Assembly: GCA_013214945.1 (NCBI GenBank)
Contig: JABSRT010000020.1
Coordinates: 1 to 64,000, forward strand
Direction of reading: 5' to 3'
Length of the DNA: 64,000 nucleotides
DNA from: Gammaproteobacteria bacterium
Lineage (GTDB): Bacteria; Pseudomonadota; Gammaproteobacteria; Enterobacterales; Psychrobiaceae
Shown here: positions 32,803-43,340 of the stretch, piece by piece
How positions within the stretch are numbered: the stretch's first letter is position 1
Layout: every line of letters begins with the position of its first letter
The notes under the pieces: generated by a model
What the model was told of the DNA's origin: nothing
Database searches by the model: none
The model's input: only the letters and a program-made list of their open reading frames with translations
Made by a program: the position numbers and the translations under genes

Positions 32803-35800
32803 ATGATTTCGGCATTATTTTCCAATGAATTTAGCCCCTTGACCAGTCAAAAGAACCCAGAGCAAACCACTGATCTTGCTGTTACTCCACAGCAAATTAA
32901 TATTCTTGTTAAGCAGAGCAAGCAGTGTATGTTGCTTGACGGCATAAAATTGCGCGCTCGCTTACGTGGGCTTGTCAAAATTAAGCAGCCAACGCGTAAG
33001 GCTGCAACCTATCAAAAGATATCAGCAGATCTAGAAAGGGCGATGGCACGCCTACAGCGCCGTAAAAACACTGTGCCAGCGTTAAATTTTCCGCCGCAGT
33101 TGCCTGTCACCCAGCTTAAAGACGACATCGCTAAGGCGATATCACTGCATCAGGTTGTGATAGTTGCTGGTGAAACTGGCTCAGGTAAAACAACCCAGCT
33201 ACCTAAAATCTGTTTAGAGCTCGGCCGTGGGATCAGTGGCTTGATAGGTCATACTCAGCCACGTCGTTTAGCGGCTCGCAGTGTTGCTGACCGCATCGCC
33301 AGTGAAATGAATACCGAGTTGGGACAAGCGGTAGGTTTTAGGGTTCGTTTTGCGGATAAGTTAAATGAAAATAGCTTAATAAAATTAATGACCGACGGTA
33401 TTTTGTTGGCCGAGATTGCACACGATCCATTACTTAATCGGTATGACACAATTATTATCGATGAAGCGCATGAGCGCAGTTTAAATATCGATTTTTTATT
33501 AGGTTACCTCAAGCGCCTGTTGCCTAAGCGTCCAGATTTGAAGATTATTATTACGTCGGCCACCATTGATACGCAGCGTTTCTCGAGCCACTTTAATAAC
33601 GCCCCAGTTATCGAAGTGAGCGGACGAACCTTTCCGGTTGAAGTAAGGTATCATCTTGACGAACACAACCAAGATAAAGACCAACTGCAATCAATATTTG
33701 ATGCGGTCGATGAGCTGTGCGCTGAAGGTCCTGGTGACATTTTAATTTTTATGAATGGTGAGCGAGAAATTCGCGATACCAGTGATGCACTGTCTAAACG
33801 TAACTTACGTGACACTGAAATTTTACCTTTGTACGCGCGTTTGAGTTATACCGAGCAAGCGAAAATATTTAAACTAGGGCGCGGGCGACGGATTATATTG
33901 GCGACCAATGTCGCAGAAACATCATTGACTGTGCCGGGCATCCGTTATGTTATCGATCCCGGTACCGCGCGGATTAGTCGCTACAGTTACCGGACCAAAG
34001 TGCAACGCTTGCCGATTGAGCCTGTATCACAAGCGAGTGCAAATCAGCGGATGGGCCGTTGTGGTCGTGTTGCTGATGGTATTTGTATTCGCCTGTACAG
34101 TGAAAGTGATTTTGATACGCGAGTTGCATTTACCGATCCCGAAATTTTAAGAACCAATTTAGCGTCAGTTATTCTACAGATGGTGTCTTTAGGCTTAGGA
34201 GAGATCGAGGCCTTTCCATTCGTACAGCCACCTGATAGCCGTAATATAAAAGATGGCATTAGTTTGCTCGAAGAAATTGGCGCGTTAGCGAAAGACAAAA
34301 CCCGTGATGGTCGCGAACTTCAATTGTCAGAGATTGGCAGTCAAATTGCAGCGTTACCTATTGATCCGCGCTTGGCCAGAATGGTGATTGAAGCCAAAGG
34401 CAACGGGTCATTAGTGCAGTTGCTGGTGATAACATCGGCTTTAAGTATTCAAGATCCCCGCGAGCGCCCACTGGACTATCAACAAAAATCAAGCCTGTGC
34501 CATCAACGTTTTCTCGACAAAGAATCTGACTTTATCGCGTTTTTAAACTTGTGGAATTACATCAAGGAACGCCAAGTCGAATTGTCCAATAGCCAATTTC
34601 GAAAAATGTGTCGCGATGAGTTTTTGTCCTACATGCGAATTCGAGAATGGCAAGATTTGTACGCGCAACTAGAGCAGGTTTTAACCGAACGCGGCATTGC
34701 CGTGGTTGGTGGCGAAGCCGACTGGGACAATGTTCATCAAGCTATTTTGTCCGGATTGTTGAGCCATATTGGTTTTAAAGATCAAAATAATGAATTTACT
34801 GGTGCGCGTAACTCGAAGTTTTTCGTTTTCCCCGGTTCTGCATTGGCCAAAAAGTCACCTAAATGGGTGATGGTGTCTGAGCTTGTCGAAACCTCACGTT
34901 TATTTGGGCGGGTTGCCGCTAAAATTGATCCATTGTGGATTGAACCGCTAGCCGAACATTTGGTTAAGCGCAATTACAGTGAACCGCATTTTGAGAAAAA
35001 ACGTGGGCAAGTGGTTGGCTTTGAACAAGTGTCATTATTTGGCCTAATTATCGTTGCTAAACGTAAGATTAATTACGAACTGATAAATAGGGTAGAAGCC
35101 CGCGAGATATTTATTCGCCAAGGGTTGGTCGAAGGTCAGTTGAGCTTAAAAGATAAATTTTATCGCCATAACTTGCAATTAGTCGAGCAAGTCGAAGAGC
35201 TTGAGCATAAATCTCGACGTCGAGACATCTTAGTCGATGAAGAAACACTCTATGCGTTTTATGATGACAAGCTGCCAGAACATATTTGCAGTGAAAAGCA
35301 GTTAACGAGTTGGTGGAAAAAAACCATCCAACAAACTCCCGACTTACTTAACTTTGAGCTTGAGCAACTGACCCGCGATGGCGCGGGCACAGTCAGTGAC
35401 AACGACTTTCCCGATCGATGGAACCAAGGCAACCTGACCTTTAAACTGAGCTATAACTTTGAGCCGGGCGCTGTTGATGATGGGGTTAGCGTTCATATTC
35501 CGATTGAATTATTAAATCAGGTAACCGCCGACGATTTTGATTGGTTAGTCACGGGCCTACGCCGTGAAAAAGTAATTGCATTAATTAAGTCGTTACCAAA
35601 ATCAATACGACGTAACTTTGTGCCTGCGCCTAATTATGCCGATGCTTGCCTTGACGCGATGCCGATGATGCAAGACAGCTTAATTAATGCCATGAGCAAA
35701 CAGTTACTGCGGATGTCGGGTATTAGAATTGACGCCCAAAGTTGGGATTTGGGGCAATTGACCGCTCATTTACTGATTAATTTTAAAATTGAGCAACAGC

Positions 35801-36783
35801 AAGGTCGCAACAATGACCAATTAATTGAGCAAGGGCGTAATTTGACGGCGCTACAACAAAAACTCAGTGGTAAAGTGCAACAATCGCTGGTCAATGTTGC
35901 CGAAACAGGGATTGAAAAGCAGGGCTTAATTGAATGGGATTTTGGAAATTTACCCGCGAGCTACACCCGTAAACGTGGCCAATTCGAAGTTAAAGCTTAT
36001 CCTGCTTTGGTTGCGGCTAAAGCCAGCGTCGAAATTAAACTGTTCGATAACTTAGCGCTTGCACAAGAACACAACCGGATTGGTTTACGTCAACTTATCT
36101 TGTTAAATGTGCCGTCGCCAGTGGCTCATATGCAGCGCACTTTACCCAATAAGGCAAAGCTAGGGCTCTATTATCATAGTTTTGGTCAAGTAAATCTGTT
36201 AATCGACGACATTATCGCTGCCGCCGTTGATACCATCATTGGTCAGCATAAAATGGAAGTATCGCAAGCCGAGCAGTTTAGTCAATTACGCGATATTGTG
36301 CGCACAGAACTGGCCGATACCGTGGTTGAAATTGCCCAGCAAGTTGAGCAGTGTTTAAGCTTGGTTAATGGCATCAATAAGAAACTAAAAGGGCGGGTCT
36401 CGCTGGATATGGTGATGGCTCATGGCGACATTAAATCGCAGCTAGCTGGTTTAATCTTTAAAGGCTTTGTTGCGGCCAATGGCAGTGATAAATTGAGTGA
36501 TATTGCGCGTTACCTTAAAGCCATTGAACGCCGGCTTGAGAAGTTACCTGTTGACACTAACCGCGACCGATTAGCCCAGATAAGCATTGAGAACGTTGCT
36601 AAACCTTATCAACAATTGGTCACGCAACTGGGTAAAGTACCTGTTATTCCTGCTGAGTTAACGTTTATTCGCTGGATGATTGAAGAACTGCGTGTGTCAT
36701 TGTTTGCTCAAACCCTTGGCACAAAATTTGCCATTTCAGAAAAGCGGATCAAACAAAAATTAGCTGACTATAAAGTTAGCTAA
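32803..36783 (+). CDS. hrpA: ATP-dependent RNA helicase HrpA
   Basis: A 1326-residue DEAH-box helicase; E. coli HrpA rescues stalled or collided ribosomes and processes some mRNAs. Walker A GETGSGKTTQLPK lies near residue 125, DEAHERS near 220, the SAT motif (TSATID) near 250, and motif VI QRMGRCGR near 415. These are followed by the helicase-associated and OB regions and the long HrpA-specific C-terminal domain (DUF3418). Length is normal. No clear ribosome site precedes the ATG; the protein begins just inside the divergent fghA spacer. A strong terminator follows. Confidence 0.97.
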   Translation: MISALFSNEFSPLTSQKNPEQTTDLAVTPQQINILVKQSKQCMLLDGIKLRARLRGLVKIKQPTRKAATYQKISADLERAMARLQRRKNTVPALNFPPQLPVTQLKDDIAKAISLHQVVIVAGETGSGKTTQLPKICLELGRGISGLIGHTQPRRLAARSVADRIASEMNTELGQAVGFRVRFADKLNENSLIKLMTDGILLAEIAHDPLLNRYDTIIIDEAHERSLNIDFLLGYLKRLLPKRPDLKIIITSATIDTQRFSSHFNNAPVIEVSGRTFPVEVRYHLDEHNQDKDQLQSIFDAVDELCAEGPGDILIFMNGEREIRDTSDALSKRNLRDTEILPLYARLSYTEQAKIFKLGRGRRIILATNVAETSLTVPGIRYVIDPGTARISRYSYRTKVQRLPIEPVSQASANQRMGRCGRVADGICIRLYSESDFDTRVAFTDPEILRTNLASVILQMVSLGLGEIEAFPFVQPPDSRNIKDGISLLEEIGALAKDKTRDGRELQLSEIGSQIAALPIDPRLARMVIEAKGNGSLVQLLVITSALSIQDPRERPLDYQQKSSLCHQRFLDKESDFIAFLNLWNYIKERQVELSNSQFRKMCRDEFLSYMRIREWQDLYAQLEQVLTERGIAVVGGEADWDNVHQAILSGLLSHIGFKDQNNEFTGARNSKFFVFPGSALAKKSPKWVMVSELVETSRLFGRVAAKIDPLWIEPLAEHLVKRNYSEPHFEKKRGQVVGFEQVSLFGLIIVAKRKINYELINRVEAREIFIRQGLVEGQLSLKDKFYRHNLQLVEQVEELEHKSRRRDILVDEETLYAFYDDKLPEHICSEKQLTSWWKKTIQQTPDLLNFELEQLTRDGAGTVSDNDFPDRWNQGNLTFKLSYNFEPGAVDDGVSVHIPIELLNQVTADDFDWLVTGLRREKVIALIKSLPKSIRRNFVPAPNYADACLDAMPMMQDSLINAMSKQLLRMSGIRIDAQSWDLGQLTAHLLINFKIEQQQGRNNDQLIEQGRNLTALQQKLSGKVQQSLVNVAETGIEKQGLIEWDFGNLPASYTRKRGQFEVKAYPALVAAKASVEIKLFDNLALAQEHNRIGLRQLILLNVPSPVAHMQRTLPNKAKLGLYYHSFGQVNLLIDDIIAAAVDTIIGQHKMEVSQAEQFSQLRDIVRTELADTVVEIAQQVEQCLSLVNGINKKLKGRVSLDMVMAHGDIKSQLAGLIFKGFVAANGSDKLSDIARYLKAIERRLEKLPVDTNRDRLAQISIENVAKPYQQLVTQLGKVPVIPAELTFIRWMIEELRVSLFAQTLGTKFAISEKRIKQKLADYKVS

Positions 36784-36793
36784 GGATAAAACT

Positions 36794-36824
36794 AAACAGC
36801 CACGCCAATTAAGCGTGGCTGTTT
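36794..36824 (+). terminator. Terminator after hrpA
   Basis: A perfect 12-bp stem (36794-36805 with 36813-36824) with a 7-nt loop, followed by GGTTTTATT. It begins 10 nt after the hrpA stop. Confidence 0.85.
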
Positions 36825-36943: not shown

Positions 36944-39013
36944 ATGAAATCAACGACTGCCAACATGGCAGCGGCATTGTTATGTCTAACAGCGGCTTTG
37001 CCACTGACAGCCAAACCCGTTGCCGTGACCGATATAATGCATTTATCGCGCATTCACTCTGCCGCAGTTTCACCCAATGGTGACTTATTAGTTTACGGGA
37101 TTGCAGTTAACAGCGATTTGGAGAAATCGTCAAATCTATATCTTAAAGATTTGAACCAGCCACAACAACCAGCCATGCAGTTAACCTCAAGTCAAAGTAT
37201 CGAGCATGACGTTGTGTGGTCAGCTGACAGTAAATCGATATATTTCATTGCCGAGCGTCCAGTCAGCTCCCAAGCGAGTGCACGAGTTAGTGAACAAGTT
37301 TGGCGGCTAAATTTAGCCGGCGGCGAAGCGATGCCAATTACCCAATTAGGCCTGCCGGTGTTAGGACTAAAATTGTCTCCAGACAACAGTAAAATTGCGT
37401 TATCACTGCCTGCTTTTTCTGGCTGTCAAAATCTTGAATGCAATATCAGTCGTTACACCGCTAACTTTCAGCAGAAGCAACAATCAGCTGACTCTACCAA
37501 TGACTGGCTCATTAGAACCAATAATCGGTGGCAAGACTTAAGCTCTCGCCATATATATGTTGGCGACCTAGCGGCAGGCAAAGTGAGTCACTTAGTTGAC
37601 ATCGCAGCGCCCGAGGCAGGTGCAGCTGACCTGACATTGGCGGGACTAGACGATTTTAGCTTTAGCGCAGATGGACAATCTATTGTTTATGCAGCTAAGG
37701 TCGCGCAAGCGACGTCAAACAACTACGATTTATGGCAGCTACCACTGTCGTCTGGCCCTGCGATAAACCTAACGCCAACCAATATTGGCACAGATCTACA
37801 GCCGATATTTTCAAGTGATGGTCGTTTTATGGCTTATTTAGCGCAAGACTATCAAGGGAACGGCACCCAGAACCGCTCTATTATTTTGGTTGATTTAATA
37901 ACAACCAAAGCTAAAGAACTGGCACCACTGTGGGATCGCTCAGCAACCAGTATTGCCTTTGCAGCCGACAGTCGAAACATTTATGTCACGGCTAATGATA
38001 TGGGCCAGCATGGCGTTTTTGTCGTCAACAGCCAATTTGGCGACATTAAGCGACTTTATAGCGAGGGGAATTCGCAAGTTATTGGTCTTAGTCATGACAA
38101 CCTTGTGATTGACCATAGCAGTTTGAATCACCCGCGTGAATTATTTTTACTTAATCGAGCTGGCGGGAATTTGCAGCCTGTCTCGGCTGTTAACCAAGCG
38201 AAGCTTAACCAGCTTAGCTTTGGTGAGTTCTCTCAGTTTTCGTACCGCGGCTGGAATGACGAGTTGGTTTATGGCTATTGGATTAAACCTAGCAATTACC
38301 AGCAAGGTAAAAAATATCCAATGGTGGTATTGGTTAATCATAATTCTGATCGGCCATTAAATAGATTTTCAGCACAAGGCCAGCCACAAATTTGGGCTGG
38401 CGCAGGTTATGGTGTAGTGACTATCGACTTGCACGGCGCCGTTGGTTATGGCCATAAATTTGCTGATTCAACTGTTGAAGATTGGGGCGGTAAACCATTA
38501 GAAGATTTACAAAAAGGCTTAGCCGCTGTGGTTAAGCAACAACCCTGGTTAGATAACGAAAAAACGTGCGCCATCGGCTCTGGCTTAGGTGGATATTTAG
38601 TTAACTGGATTGCAGGGCAGTGGCCGGATCAATTTGACTGTTTAGTGAATCATGGCGGCATTTTTGATTTGCGAATGCACTATCAACTGACTTCTCAGGT
38701 GTGGCATGTCCAGCGTCAATTTGGCGGTAGCTATAATGAGGTGCCAGATAATTACCAAAACTACAATCCGGCCAACTTTACCAGTAACTGGACCACACCT
38801 ATTATTTTTAGTCATGGCGGCCACGATCCTATTATTTCACCAGCACAAAGTACGGCAGGTTTTAATGCCCTGAAACGCAATAACGTCGCAACCAAATTAA
38901 TGGTATTTCCGCAAGAAAGTCAGCAAGTAACCGCTACCAATAACCTGTCAGCTTGGTATCAGCAGGTATTTGCTTGGGTAGCACAATACACCCAACCTAA
39001 TGTGGCTAAATAA
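36944..39013 (+). CDS. S9 prolyl oligopeptidase-family protein, catalytic residues lost
   Basis: A 689-residue exported protein with a signal peptide ending near TAK, a WD40/TolB-like propeller (about residues 30-400) and a C-terminal alpha/beta hydrolase domain (about 425-685) of the acylaminoacyl-peptidase/dipeptidyl-peptidase type. The domain aligns well with active relatives (VNHGGIFDL, YNPANF, FNALKR, FPQES). The nucleophile motif, normally GxSxGG, reads GSGLGGY, so the position of the serine is Gly547, with Ser546 displaced by one. The His position, normally in FPdEgH, is Gln660. Only Asp628 (HGGHDPIIS) is kept. The gene is otherwise intact, so it looks like a maintained pseudoenzyme, perhaps a binding or chaperone-like protein. 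The ribosome site GAGAGAAG precedes the ATG. Confidence 0.85.
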   Translation: MKSTTANMAAALLCLTAALPLTAKPVAVTDIMHLSRIHSAAVSPNGDLLVYGIAVNSDLEKSSNLYLKDLNQPQQPAMQLTSSQSIEHDVVWSADSKSIYFIAERPVSSQASARVSEQVWRLNLAGGEAMPITQLGLPVLGLKLSPDNSKIALSLPAFSGCQNLECNISRYTANFQQKQQSADSTNDWLIRTNNRWQDLSSRHIYVGDLAAGKVSHLVDIAAPEAGAADLTLAGLDDFSFSADGQSIVYAAKVAQATSNNYDLWQLPLSSGPAINLTPTNIGTDLQPIFSSDGRFMAYLAQDYQGNGTQNRSIILVDLITTKAKELAPLWDRSATSIAFAADSRNIYVTANDMGQHGVFVVNSQFGDIKRLYSEGNSQVIGLSHDNLVIDHSSLNHPRELFLLNRAGGNLQPVSAVNQAKLNQLSFGEFSQFSYRGWNDELVYGYWIKPSNYQQGKKYPMVVLVNHNSDRPLNRFSAQGQPQIWAGAGYGVVTIDLHGAVGYGHKFADSTVEDWGGKPLEDLQKGLAAVVKQQPWLDNEKTCAIGSGLGGYLVNWIAGQWPDQFDCLVNHGGIFDLRMHYQLTSQVWHVQRQFGGSYNEVPDNYQNYNPANFTSNWTTPIIFSHGGHDPIISPAQSTAGFNALKRNNVATKLMVFPQESQQVTATNNLSAWYQQVFAWVAQYTQPNVAK

Positions 39014-39056: not shown

Positions 39057-39269
39057 CTGTTTTAAACATCAGCTTGATAATCGTATGCTATTCAGACCAC
39101 TGGTAAAAAAAAATATGTTACTATTGCAATCTGTCAATGTTAATTGGTCTGGCATGCTGATTGGGTGATTTAAATGTTAGACAAATAGCTGTTTATTATA
39201 AGATCGTCCATTTTATATGCGTTCTAAAAACAAGATCGCTTGACAGATAATGCCAACAGGTTATATTTA

Positions 39270-39300: not shown

Positions 39301-39930
39301 GTGCAAAAAATAGACACAAAAACAAAAATTCTTAATGCCGCAGAACAATTGTTTGCTGAGCGCGGTTATGCTGATACCTCATTGCGTTTAATCACCAGTC
39401 AAGCCGAAGTTAACTTGGCGTCTGTTAATTATCATTTTGGATCTAAAAAAGAACTTATTCAGGCGGTACTGGCGCGATATTTAGATGTATTTACGCCCAA
39501 ACTTACCGTAGCGATTGAAGAATTAAATGGACGTGAAGCTAAATATAATCAAACAGATGTATTTAATAGTTTAATGGAACCATTATTAGAACTTAATGCT
39601 TTTCGCCACCGTGGAACCACAATTTTCTTGCAATTATTAGGTCGCGGTTATGTCGAAACTCAAGGCCACTTACGTTGGTTTATGACAACCCATTACGGTG
39701 ACATAATGGGTGCGTTTAATGCCGCTGTGCAGCAAGCTAATCCTCATTTGTCGAAAGCTGAAGTGTTTTGGCGCTTACACTTTACGCTTGGCAGCGTAGT
39801 GTTTACGATGGCATCGAGTAATGCGTTGTCCGATATCGCAAAGTCTGATTTCAATCAGGATGTTGATATCGAAAATTTGATTAAACGTTTAATTCCATTC
39901 ATCTCTGCTGGTGTTAGCGCGCCAGAATAA
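39301..39930 (+). CDS. psrA: TetR-family fatty-acid-responsive regulator PsrA
   Basis: A 209-residue TetR protein closely resembling Pseudomonas PsrA throughout: AAEQLFAERGYADTSLRLIT, then NLASVNYHFGSKKELIQAV in the DNA-binding helix-turn-helix (about residues 28-50), and WRLHFTLGS in the ligand domain. PsrA senses long-chain acyl-CoA or fatty acids and controls beta-oxidation and, in pseudomonads, rpoS. In Shewanella-type bacteria it takes the place of FadR. The start is a GTG, with AAAGGG about 12 nt upstream. A matching operator lies just upstream. An 11-bp hairpin follows the gene. Confidence 0.88.
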   Translation: MQKIDTKTKILNAAEQLFAERGYADTSLRLITSQAEVNLASVNYHFGSKKELIQAVLARYLDVFTPKLTVAIEELNGREAKYNQTDVFNSLMEPLLELNAFRHRGTTIFLQLLGRGYVETQGHLRWFMTTHYGDIMGAFNAAVQQANPHLSKAEVFWRLHFTLGSVVFTMASSNALSDIAKSDFNQDVDIENLIKRLIPFISAGVSAPE

Positions 39931-39972
39931 GCGCTCGAACATGTCCTTAACCTTGGATTTAGAGTCAAGCGA

Positions 39973-40005
39973 ACGGTCAGGGTCTATAAGAAAAACCCTG
40001 ACCGT
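39973..40005 (+). terminator. 11-bp hairpin between psrA and zapE
   Basis: Perfect arms 39973-39983 and 39995-40005 with an 11-nt A-rich loop. No U-tract follows, so it may be a Rho-protecting 3' stem or an operator rather than an intrinsic terminator. Confidence 0.5.
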
Positions 40006-40052
40006 CCAACACATTCAACAACATCGTTGAACACTATTTGTTGTCGTTAATT

Positions 40053-41234
40053 ATGCCTACCAATTTATTTGAACGTTATCAACAATTCATCAATCAACCG
40101 AACGGGGTTGTCGATCCGGCGCAATTAGCGGCGGTTGCATTACTGTCTGACCTTGCGACTAAGCTCAATGCTGGGCCAAGCAAAGCTGTAACAGGCATAT
40201 ATTTATGGGGCGATGTTGGCCGTGGCAAAACATTTCTAATGGATTTGTTTTATGACAGCATTACCGATCAGCCTAAGTTGCGCTTGCACTTCCATCATTT
40301 TATGGCGCGAATGCATCGTGAACTTAATCTCGAGTCGGGCCATAGCGAACCGCTAAGACGTATTGCCCAACGCTTATCTACTCAATGCCGGGTTTTATGT
40401 TTCGATGAGTTTTTTGTCTCAGACATTGGCGATGCGATGATCTTAGGCCGACTGTTTGAAGCGCTATTCGATTGTGGCGTTACCTTGGTTGCCACATCAA
40501 ATATCCCAATTGAGAACTTATATCAAGGTGGTTTGCAACGTCAGCGGTTCGAGCCAACCATTGAGTTGTTACATCAAAACACGATTAGCTGTCACTTAAA
40601 TGGCGATCATGACCACCGCTTGCGACACTTAACTTATCAGCAAACCTATTTTGAACTTGATCATCAACGCGCGCAGGTTAAATTCAATGAACTGTTTAAG
40701 CAAATAAATCACCAGGGTGATTCAGTTAATGATGCCTTAACTATTTTAGGTCGTAGTATCAAGGTGATCCGAAAGAGTGAAACTGTGGTGTGGTTACATT
40801 TTGACGCTATCTGTAATGGCCCGCGCAGTGCGCTCGATTATATCGAACTAGCGCGCCAGTTTACAACGATATTGATTAGTGAGGTGCCGATCTTAGGGGG
40901 GCAATGTCGATCTTGGATCCGAGCTCGAGGTACTGAAGACGGCAGCGAAGCAACGGCGACCGGTGAGCGACAATTGAGTTACGCCGGTCAAGACGATCCT
41001 GCCCGGCGATTTATCAGCTTGGTTGACGAACTGTACGATCAAAACGTCCAGCTCTATTTAAGTGCTGATGTTCCACTTAACCAACTCTACAGTGGTGGCG
41101 CCTTAAGCTTTGAGTTTAGGCGAACCTTAAGCCGGCTAACAGAAATGCAATCGTTACAATATCTTGAACGTAAACCGGCCATAACATCTATCACCAAGCT
41201 AGCCGTAACTCCGAGTTGCTTGGCCAAGAGTTAA
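40053..41234 (+). CDS. zapE: Cell division protein ZapE (AFG1-like ATPase)
   Basis: ZapE is an AFG1/LACE1-type P-loop ATPase that acts at the Z ring under low-oxygen or heat stress in E. coli. Walker A GDVGRGKTFLMDLF lies near residue 55, Walker B LCFDEFFVSDIGDAM near 118, and the arginine-rich tail LSFEFRRTLSRL near 360. I use the ATG at 40053 (393 residues, MPTNLFERYQQF); a TTG at 40038 would add five unusual residues. In many relatives zapE lies near rplM and rpsI, which are absent here. Confidence 0.93.
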   Translation: MPTNLFERYQQFINQPNGVVDPAQLAAVALLSDLATKLNAGPSKAVTGIYLWGDVGRGKTFLMDLFYDSITDQPKLRLHFHHFMARMHRELNLESGHSEPLRRIAQRLSTQCRVLCFDEFFVSDIGDAMILGRLFEALFDCGVTLVATSNIPIENLYQGGLQRQRFEPTIELLHQNTISCHLNGDHDHRLRHLTYQQTYFELDHQRAQVKFNELFKQINHQGDSVNDALTILGRSIKVIRKSETVVWLHFDAICNGPRSALDYIELARQFTTILISEVPILGGQCRSWIRARGTEDGSEATATGERQLSYAGQDDPARRFISLVDELYDQNVQLYLSADVPLNQLYSGGALSFEFRRTLSRLTEMQSLQYLERKPAITSITKLAVTPSCLAKS

Positions 41235-41236
41235 GA

Positions 41237-41284
41237 CTAATACCTCAAGATGCTAATACCTTAAGATGCTTATACCTTAAGAGT
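41237..41284. repeat. Three tandem copies of a 16-bp repeat
   Basis: Units at 41237-41252, 41253-41268 and 41269-41284 share the core CTAATACCTTAAGATG with one to three differences. They fill the convergent gap between zapE and ptrB, and the third copy supplies the ptrB stop codon (complement at 41277-41279). Confidence 0.75.
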
Positions 41285-43340
41285 TTAATAAACTGATAAA
41301 GAATGACATTTCTTGTGCTTTTTCATGTAGATGACTAAAACGACCCGACGCACCGCCATGCCCGGTCTTCATATCGGTCTTAAACACCAACATATTGTCA
41401 TCTGTTTTGTATTCGCGTAATTTGGCGACCCATTTCATCGGTTCAAAGTACTGTACCTGTGAGTCATGCAAACCTGTGGTGACTAATAGGTGAGGGTAGT
41501 TTTGTGCCGTGATATTGTCGTAGGGTGAATAGCTCAGCATGTAATCGTAATAGACTTTGTCATTAGGATTACCCCACTCGTCATATTCATTGGTGGTCAG
41601 TGGAATTGTTTCATCGAGCATAGTCGTTACTATGTCTAAAAACGGTACATGAATGCCAACACCTAGGTATAACTCGGGCGCCAGATTGACCACCGTACCC
41701 ATCAGCAATCCACCGGCGCTGCCACCGCTGGCAAAAATCTTGTCGCGTGCACCATAACCTTGGTCAGCTAAGTAGTGGGTGACGTCGATAAAATCATTAA
41801 ACGAGTTTTGTTTATTAAGTTTTTTGCCATCTTCATACCAGCTACGGCCTAACATTTCACCGCCGCGCACGTGAGCAATAACATAAACAAAGCCACGATC
41901 TAATAAACTTAAGGTCTGACTGCAGAAGCTCGGATCTACAGTTAACCCGTAAGCACCATAGCCATATTGTAACAGCGGGTTGGTACCATCTTGTTTGAAC
42001 ATGTCCAGGCGATACACTAACGACACCGGAATGCTAACACCATCACGCGCCGTGATATGTAATCGTTCTGCTTGATAGTTTTTAGCGTCAAAATCGCCAA
42101 CAACTTGGTTTTGTTTTAACAAGGTTCTATTTGTTGTGGCTAAATCAAACTGATAAACAGAACCAGGGGTGGTTAAACTCGAGTAGTATATTCTGACATT
42201 ATCGCTTTGCGGTTCAGGGTTATCACCAAGACAGGCATAATAACATGGGTCGTCAAAGACCAGTGTTTGAGTGCCATTGTGCTGATTATGGATCACAAAC
42301 CGAATTTGGCCTTGCTCACGCTCAGTAACAACCAAATAATTATCGAACAGTTCAACATGTTCAAGCAATACTTCGCTACGATGCCCGATCACCTCTTGCC
42401 ACTTTTCACGCTCAAAGATATCTTCGCTACTGGCTTTCATTAACCTAAAGTTAGGTGCTTGCCAATTAGTGACGATATAAAACCACTGCCCAAGCTTATC
42501 AACTTGATATTCGTGCTGCTCATGAAAATCAATCAGACTTAAAAACTCGCCGCTGGGATCATTGGCATCGAGCACTAGCGTGTCAGTTTCTTCGGTTGCA
42601 TCAAGACTAATAAATAATAGCGATTGGTCGCGGCTTTTACCCAAACTTAAATAGAAGCTAGGATCTTCCTCCTCAAACACTAATACGTCATCACTTTGAT
42701 TAGTGCCTAAGTAATGTCTAAAAACTTGACTGCCGAGCAAGGTTTCGGGGTCTTTTTTGACATAAAACACGGTCTTGTTGTCATTAGCCCACATTAACTG
42801 ACCTTCAGTTTGCTCAAGCACGTCATCTAATAACTGCTCGGTATTAAGGTCTTTAATATAAATGGTATAAATACGGCGGCCTTGGGTATCTTGGCTATAA
42901 CTCATCAACTGGTCATTGGGACTTATCGAACAGTCACCGAGCTCATAATAATCATGCCCAGATGCACACCGATTAATATCTAATAACAACTGTTTATTGT
43001 CACCAAGATTGTCAGTTGCGCGATAAAAGCAGTGATATTCGTCATCGCCTTTAATTTCACTGTGGTACCAATAATCACCATCTTTGGTTGGCAAACTGTT
43101 GTCGTCTTTGACTATTCTAGATTTTAATTCATCAAATAGTTGTTGTTGCAGCGCTGCTTGTGGTTGAAGCACGTTGTGGCAAAATTCATTTTCGGCAGTC
43201 AAATGAGCAATCACCTGTGGATCTTGGCGTTGGTCATCGCGCATCCAATAATAATTGTCAATTCGGCTATCTTGATGCTGGTCTAATTGATGCGGTATTT
43301 TTGGTGCAACGGGCGGGGTCAGTTTAGTTACTTGGGTCAC
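41277..43340 (-). CDS. ptrB: Oligopeptidase B
   Basis: A 687-residue S9A serine peptidase that cuts peptides after Arg or Lys, probably in the cytoplasm as no signal peptide is seen. An N-terminal beta-propeller (about residues 75-410) precedes the alpha/beta hydrolase domain. The full triad is present: Ser in GGSAGGLLMG near 538, Asp in GLHDSQVQYFEP near 624, and His in GHGGASGR near 659. This contrasts with the inactive S9 homologue at 36944-39013. Its 3' end lies in a tandem repeat, convergent with zapE. Confidence 0.95.
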   Translation of the reverse strand: MTQVTKLTPPVAPKIPHQLDQHQDSRIDNYYWMRDDQRQDPQVIAHLTAENEFCHNVLQPQAALQQQLFDELKSRIVKDDNSLPTKDGDYWYHSEIKGDDEYHCFYRATDNLGDNKQLLLDINRCASGHDYYELGDCSISPNDQLMSYSQDTQGRRIYTIYIKDLNTEQLLDDVLEQTEGQLMWANDNKTVFYVKKDPETLLGSQVFRHYLGTNQSDDVLVFEEEDPSFYLSLGKSRDQSLLFISLDATEETDTLVLDANDPSGEFLSLIDFHEQHEYQVDKLGQWFYIVTNWQAPNFRLMKASSEDIFEREKWQEVIGHRSEVLLEHVELFDNYLVVTEREQGQIRFVIHNQHNGTQTLVFDDPCYYACLGDNPEPQSDNVRIYYSSLTTPGSVYQFDLATTNRTLLKQNQVVGDFDAKNYQAERLHITARDGVSIPVSLVYRLDMFKQDGTNPLLQYGYGAYGLTVDPSFCSQTLSLLDRGFVYVIAHVRGGEMLGRSWYEDGKKLNKQNSFNDFIDVTHYLADQGYGARDKIFASGGSAGGLLMGTVVNLAPELYLGVGIHVPFLDIVTTMLDETIPLTTNEYDEWGNPNDKVYYDYMLSYSPYDNITAQNYPHLLVTTGLHDSQVQYFEPMKWVAKLREYKTDDNMLVFKTDMKTGHGGASGRFSHLHEKAQEMSFFISLLNS

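Follow-up and report, generated by a model that had tools for sequence, protein, structure and literature searches.

A probable lineage-specific, apparently exported pseudopeptidase of the S9 family in a gammaproteobacterium

The DNA analyzed here, a stretch of 64,000 nucleotides from a gammaproteobacterium referred to below as the window, encodes a 689 amino acid homolog of the S9 peptidases. The open reading frame (positions 36944-39013, forward strand) runs from an ATG to a stop codon with zero internal stops. The relevant features are:

36944..39013, forward strand: gene of the putative S9 pseudopeptidase, 689 aa (open reading frame, profile matches and alignments)
36944..37012, forward strand: signal peptide-like N-terminus, residues 1-23 (by eye from the sequence)
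37016..38233, forward strand: beta-propeller domain, approximately residues 25-430 (Pfam PD40 at residues 78-106 and alignments; limits by eye)
38234..39010, forward strand: alpha/beta-hydrolase domain, approximately residues 431-689 (Pfam Peptidase_S9 at residues 479-684; limits by eye)
38336..38356, forward strand: former oxyanion motif, residues 465-471, HGGPQGS in the relatives from the genus and NHNSDRP here
38576..38593, forward strand: former nucleophile elbow, residues 545-550, G-A/G-S-Y-G-G in the relatives and GSGLGG here (Ser547 to Gly)
38825..38833, forward strand: residues 628-630, catalytic Asp628 retained, Arg630 to Ile
38915..38926, forward strand: former catalytic His loop, residues 658-661, ENHW in the relatives and ESQQ here (His660 to Gln)
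39301..39930, forward strand: TetR-family regulator (Pfam), a conserved downstream neighbor that fixes positional orthology, with no joint action claimed
41277-43340, minus strand: oligopeptidase B-like gene, a two-domain S9 protein by Pfam with no signal peptide by eye

Of the neighbors, the TetR and oligopeptidase B-like genes were searched with Pfam; the names hrpA, ZapE-like and oligopeptidase B were assigned by eye.

By descent, the window protein belongs to the S9 family: its match to Peptidase_S9 (PF00326) scores 143.2 bits, where the curated cut-off is 22.6, and the order of PD40 followed by Peptidase_S9 corresponds, at the sequence level, to the S9 layout of a propeller with a C-terminal alpha/beta-hydrolase domain. 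It is apparently exported. The NCBIfam equivalog model of Dpp5 (NF053518) gives it 327.1 bits, under the curated cut-off of 900; because three canonical orthologs tested also miss this cut-off (500-522 bits), we describe the protein as Dpp5-related and do not file it as Dpp5. Its relatives in the PDB, as found by sequence, are S9 peptidases, of which 8wt1 is the best match. Two AlphaFold2 models built from 5-row alignments reached a mean pLDDT of 50.0 and 39.7, too low to place Ser546 or the new histidines discussed below. A Foldseek search with the first of these low-confidence models again put S9 enzymes at the top (8wt1), with TM-scores of only 0.24-0.40 among the matches listed, so that little was gained beyond sequence comparison. 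A propeller loop carries 8 extra residues in frame (37271-37294, approximately residues 110-117), an insertion absent from the 10 relatives displayed. The protein also contains less Lys+Arg (6.7% versus 9.3-10.3% in the orthologs from the genus) and more Gln+Asn (14.5% versus 10.5-13.4%). The composition of hrpA from the same genome lies inside the range of its relatives, and that of TetR is ordinary in Lys+Arg and slightly the highest in Gln+Asn (10.5 versus 7.1-10.1).

The first-pass annotation of this locus described a complete and well conserved hydrolase domain with Gly547 at the serine position, Gln660 at the histidine position and, of the catalytic triad, only Asp628 retained. Alignment with 19 homologs bears out all three assignments: position 547 is Ser and position 660 is His in 19/19, and Asp628 is present in all 19 as well as here. 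The domain is complete as described; its good conservation, however, does not hold, the Peptidase_S9 score being 143 bits compared with 210 for the sister protein and residues 625-684 matching the genus consensus at only 30-35%. The underlying observation is confirmed, and was understated, given that the losses extend beyond the two triad residues to the oxyanion motif and Arg630. For the Aeropyrum acylpeptide hydrolase, Gly369 is described as an oxyanion residue and Arg526 as a substrate-recognition residue (PMC4394528), and we assign the role of Arg630 after this account by its place, two residues after the Asp. The RW pair at 478-479 is lost as well, and the propeller motif RHW (191-193) reads RTN here. 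Two residue pairs altered in the window protein, EE at 584-585 and HW at 192-193, are invariant in the 19 rows and not invariant in the wider set, where Glu occurs at 584 and at 585 in 85/104 rows each (duplicates included). Altogether, the window protein departs from the other 19 rows at 40 of the 109 sites on which these all agree, compared with 0-9 when any other row is left out in the same manner, so that the loss is not due to chance. Within the hydrolase domain, 17/25 invariant sites are altered in the motif windows versus 13/62 elsewhere (Fisher p 5e-5, for windows that were picked after viewing the alignment).

We then turn to a wider set of 135 other loci, comprising all the survey matches listed, the genomes of the genus and four sphingomonad loci, with the window gene excluded and the duplicates L070 and L081 taken out. 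The survey accepted profile matches at E <= 1e-120, scored at most two candidates per genome and covered two overlapping samples, one of the order (394 genomes, 78 with a match) and one of the phylum (397 genomes, 38 with a match). All 135 loci have Ser547, Asp628, His660, Arg630, Gly466, Gly467 and Trp661, and 130 of them have His465; the HGG at 465-467 is NHN in the window protein. The profile was built from mostly canonical members (17 rows, the window gene among them), and very divergent dead copies may escape it; the window gene itself scored 7e-294, aided by being one of the 17 rows. There are 37 sites invariant across 102 full-length rows (100 of them distinct, after removal of two partial rows), of which 12 differ in the window protein, namely, 466-468, 478, 479, 510, 547, 630, 632 and 659-661. 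Nearly all of these lie in or beside catalytic motifs (by position, the oxyanion loop, the nucleophile, the Arg two residues after the Asp and the His loop), and a leave-one-out count over the 37 sites yields at most one difference in any other row. A scan of viral contigs found no relatives. It had been proposed that conservation of the Gly and the Gln among orthologs would make the new role an old one; this combination is shared by 0/135 other rows, the nearest relatives are canonical, and the catalytic loss is thus recent on the scale of the genus.

Within the genus, Ser, Asp and His are retained in seven of the eight other genomes. The eighth (G003) provides a C-terminal fragment only, as its contig starts within the last codons of the gene (PNENHWIL, with the His present) and continues into the same TetR gene. 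A canonical gene followed by this TetR gene is found at the six genus loci where both were read (G001, G002, G004, G005, G006 and G008), and the contig of G007 ends beside the S9 gene. In the phylogenetic tree, the window gene groups within the genus (97/94); its terminal branch measures 1.47 changes per site, about seven times the 0.20 of the sister G004, and the tree tool warned that the exact placement of so long a branch is unsure. Identity to G004 is 81% for hrpA, 78% for TetR and 50% for the S9 gene; the corresponding values between G004 and G002 are 75%, 80% and 76%. With its neighbors at 78-81% and the S9 gene at 50%, the acceleration is specific to the S9 gene on the window branch. 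Since the window gene is the positional ortholog, the catalytic change belongs to this branch as well and, judging from these comparisons, postdates the split from the relatives that were read (for G003, from the C-terminal fragment only).

The S9-TetR pair has changed its location in the window lineage. It follows a fumarase gene in G002 (by Pfam) and G004 (as a homolog), and frames of similar size occupy the place of the fumarase in G001, G005, G006 and G007; the fumarase gene of the window genome lies on another contig, with the usual neighbors before it and different genes after it. Here, the pair is located between hrpA and a ZapE-like gene (window 32803-36783 and 39301-41234; both by eye). 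Consensus scans detected a terminator-like hairpin between hrpA and the S9 gene (36794-36824, minus strand) and a promoter-like site before TetR (39240-39267), with totals for promoters (7 versus 6.5, sd 2.4) and terminators (5 versus 2.9, sd 1.9) that are near those of shuffled sequences. A role exerted through the TetR neighbor or an operon was considered and set aside, given these totals and that the neighborhood alone was seen. Frames of 552-553 aa follow TetR in five relatives (G001, G002, G005, G006 and G008; Na_Ala_symp by Pfam, for that of G002 only), and a link to this symporter gene was dropped because there is none in the stretch of G003 that was read.

To what extent the gene is kept under selection depends on how synonymous change is calibrated. 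A free-branch codon model was saturated on the window branch (dS at the bound, w 0.018), so dS was anchored on hrpA of the same species, and w depends on the anchor. With the hrpA anchor, w is 0.271 on the window branch versus 0.055 in the background (LRT versus w=1, 497); by domain, it increases from 0.072 to 0.281 in the propeller and from 0.026 to 0.26 in the hydrolase domain. When the scale is fitted (2.55 times), w is 0.103 on the window branch versus 0.021 in the background; halving the anchor gives 0.565 (LRT 99) and multiplying it by 2.5 gives 0.105, w being <1 under all three anchors tried. At the same hrpA anchor, G004, G002, G008 and G005 taken as foreground show w of 0.03-0.08.

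By arithmetic from the codon-model results, the excess change corresponds to approximately 600-730 neutral substitutions over the three anchors. Neutral simulation from the G004 sequence leaves only a 6% chance of zero stops after 65 substitutions; after 660, which bring identity to 50%, the mean is 18 stops, and 0/300 simulations are stop-free. Among the positions that are hydrophobic in all 19 other rows, 131/143 are still hydrophobic in the window protein, compared with a neutral mean of 107 and maximum of 119 at 660 substitutions (n=300), 115 and 128 at 460, and 123 and 136 at 300. This test bites only at the higher levels that match the divergence: 300 substitutions are too few for it, and the maximum there, 136, exceeds the observed 131. 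The gene is not simply decaying, having no stop, a dN/dS of about 0.27 and a hydrophobic core kept beyond the matched neutral simulations.

Constraint has nevertheless been relaxed as well as changed, and not at the active site alone, as the loss is spread across all conservation classes. With the classes ranked by decreasing conservation, 63, 63, 57 and 28% of the majority residues are kept here versus 98, 94, 80 and 38% in the sister. All four invariant Cys are kept, and invariant Gly, Cys, Trp and Pro together are kept at 33/42 sites versus 36/67 for the others (p 0.014, with the grouping picked afterwards). Compared with the genus consensus, residues 85-104, 325-344, 425-444 and 485-564 are the least changed, and the greatest change is found at 165-244, 405-424 (a stretch that also varies in the sister), 465-484 and 625-684. 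Of the properties that characterize a pseudoenzyme of the DPP6/DPP10 kind, two are seen here: catalytic residues lost from a homologous fold that is kept, for the fold predicted from the sequence, and purifying selection on the gene, as an anchor-dependent w of 0.27. What the sequences themselves establish is that the catalytic apparatus is gone, that the gene is orthologous to those of active-type enzymes, that its evolution has accelerated and that purifying selection still acts on it.

The other S9 genes of the genome bear on possible partners. PF00326 has 6 matches in the window genome. The eight others from the genus, which include less complete ones, have 9-17; the window genome thus has the fewest, which suggests loss of S9 peptidases in its lineage. 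Three matches are strong: the window gene, the oligopeptidase B-like gene and a 264-codon hydrolase-only frame (approximately C25:10755-11546, in locus L157, G000:C25:7000-16000). The latter has a GMSYGG elbow and no propeller frame before it, adjoins an 826-aa TonB-receptor-like gene (by eye) and may be a shortened gene. Examination of the PF00326 matches, and hence of partners within S9 only, revealed no other full-length exported S9 protein in the window genome, which makes a heteromer with an active S9 paralog unlikely. Of the two roles suggested by the first-pass annotation, regulation of another S9 peptidase is weakened, the only other full-length candidate being the oligopeptidase B-like protein that seems to lack a signal peptide, and it is doubtful that the former pocket binds peptides, since Arg630, EE 584-585 and HW 192-193 have changed too.

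We favor, with a probability of roughly 0.6, the interpretation that the window protein is a lineage-specific pseudopeptidase retained as a scaffold or binder, with a mode of working like that of DPP6/DPP10. The ancestor would have been a Dpp5-like/S9C-type serine peptidase, and the window protein its catalytically dead, apparently exported descendant; of the lineages read, only that of the window genome has lost the catalytic Ser and His together with the oxyanion motif and the Arg that binds substrate. The two-domain body of propeller and alpha/beta-hydrolase, still upheld by selection, would most likely perform non-hydrolytic work in the periplasm as a scaffold or binding protein, the propeller and the hydrolase core contacting a partner. 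That the protein is inactive in vitro, that it is exported and that it serves as a binder or scaffold are inferences. The idea of a kept pseudoenzyme, already put forward in the earlier annotation, gains from the catalytic loss in one lineage, a reading frame still intact along a very long branch, dN/dS <1 and the kept hydrophobic core; its overall interpretation is partly supported. Against the favored reading, the protein is seen in one genome only, and the excess loss is nearly even over the conservation classes, as general relaxation would give.

Broad loss of constraint leaves room for two rivals in particular. The gene could be a relic, an enzyme that became useless in a lineage that has shed most of its S9 peptidases, drifting to loss with no stop yet. 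The smallest number of PF00326 matches among the nine genomes of the genus, the reduction of another S9 gene to a 264-codon hydrolase-only frame, a dN/dS 5-fold above background, loss over all conservation classes and the move of the gene pair from its ancestral place beside the fumarase all fit such a course, which is nonetheless unlikely in our estimate: 689 codons contain no stop, where about 65 neutral substitutions already leave 6% stop-free and hundreds are needed for the excess change, the hydrophobic core is retained beyond neutral expectation at matching divergence, and w is <1 with all three anchors. Alternatively, the protein could be expressed and functionless, with selection acting only against misfolding or toxicity of an exported protein, so that the core is preserved and there is no new role. 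A preserved core and frame with freely changing functional sites would be expected in this case; however, shutting off or deleting a gene is an easy escape in bacteria, and S9 genes are fewer in the window lineage, with one apparently shortened. We consider this quite improbable.

The remaining alternatives concern the active site and the identity of the gene. The cleft might have been remodeled to accommodate a novel ligand or activity, as five new histidines (466, 504, 579, 588 and 627, positions where at most 1/19 other rows has His) lie in the hydrolase domain, 466, 588 and 627 of them within or beside motifs of the old active site. Combined with the new sequence of the oxyanion loop, they could form a new binding or metal site; the total of 17 His is ordinary for the family (10-22), and we regard a rebuilt cleft as rather doubtful. 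The same histidines, and a serine adjoining the old nucleophile position, could be taken to indicate that the protein is still a hydrolase, with Ser546 as the nucleophile and another His. This is very hard to reconcile with the elbow, which has no indel (C542 to W555 are equal in length to the relatives), so that Ser546 is one position off, at the first x of GxSxGG; moreover, the whole sequence contains no His between 628 and the C-terminus, and HGGP and Arg630 are lost too. There is likewise very little to be said for a paralog, a horizontally acquired gene or an artefact of assembly or contamination in place of an ortholog. The low identity of 50% to the sister gene, outer neighbors unlike those of the relatives and the uncertain placement of the long branch would agree with such an origin, against which stand the tree position inside the genus, the same TetR gene downstream, the score of only 47 bits for the sole other match in the genome, and the 80-81% identity of hrpA on this contig to its nearest relatives.

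Dead enzymes are a known kind, of which the window protein is a striking case, so far from one lineage. Pseudoenzymes are often old, so that the step from enzyme to non-enzyme is hard to reach. A dead copy, complete in its catalytic loss and preserved in frame and core, and canonical orthologs within one genus make a good pair for testing whether and how a peptidase becomes a binding protein. They also call for caution in annotating S9 proteins as peptidases by profile score alone, considering that the window protein passes the Pfam cut-off by 120 bits.

The canonical orthologs from the genus, which are Dpp5-like/S9C-type (e.g., G004:C55:2539-4575), resemble the window protein in domain order and the downstream TetR gene and can be aligned with it end to end at 44-50% identity; they keep Ser547, His660, HGGP, Arg630 and the EE pair, all of which the window protein has lost. 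Among structures, the Geobacillus S9 carboxypeptidase 8wt1, the best match both by sequence and by the low-confidence model, has a GGSYGG elbow versus GSGLGG here, and a Deinococcus S9 peptidase (5yzm/5yzo) is among the matches listed in both searches. All of these are peptidases by title, and 5yzo is, by title, an engineered S514A mutant and not a natural loss. A search of the open-access literature, covering titles and the starts of abstracts with subscription papers mostly outside it, listed no paper on a bacterial S9 pseudopeptidase, which is no proof of absence. Putative inactive serine protease homologs do occur in prokaryotes, amounting to 42 of 966 proteins in one survey (PMC2605481), and these have lost catalytic residues in an otherwise intact protein, as the window protein has; the survey deals with families S1, S8, S12, S14 and S16 and not with S9. 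The precedent for the mode of working, without a claim of membership, is offered by the human S9B pseudopeptidases DPP6 and DPP10 (DPPY), which are reported to be inactive and to have kept the S9 body with the nucleophile gone (PMC4350108). DPP10 shows the same Ser to Gly replacement as the window protein and is an inactive modulator of Kv4 channels (PMC4350108). The human proteins are membrane-anchored, whereas the window protein is bacterial and apparently exported; and DPP10, in the same account, keeps the His, the Asp and the Glu pair, whereas the window protein has also lost the His, the oxyanion motif and the Arg.
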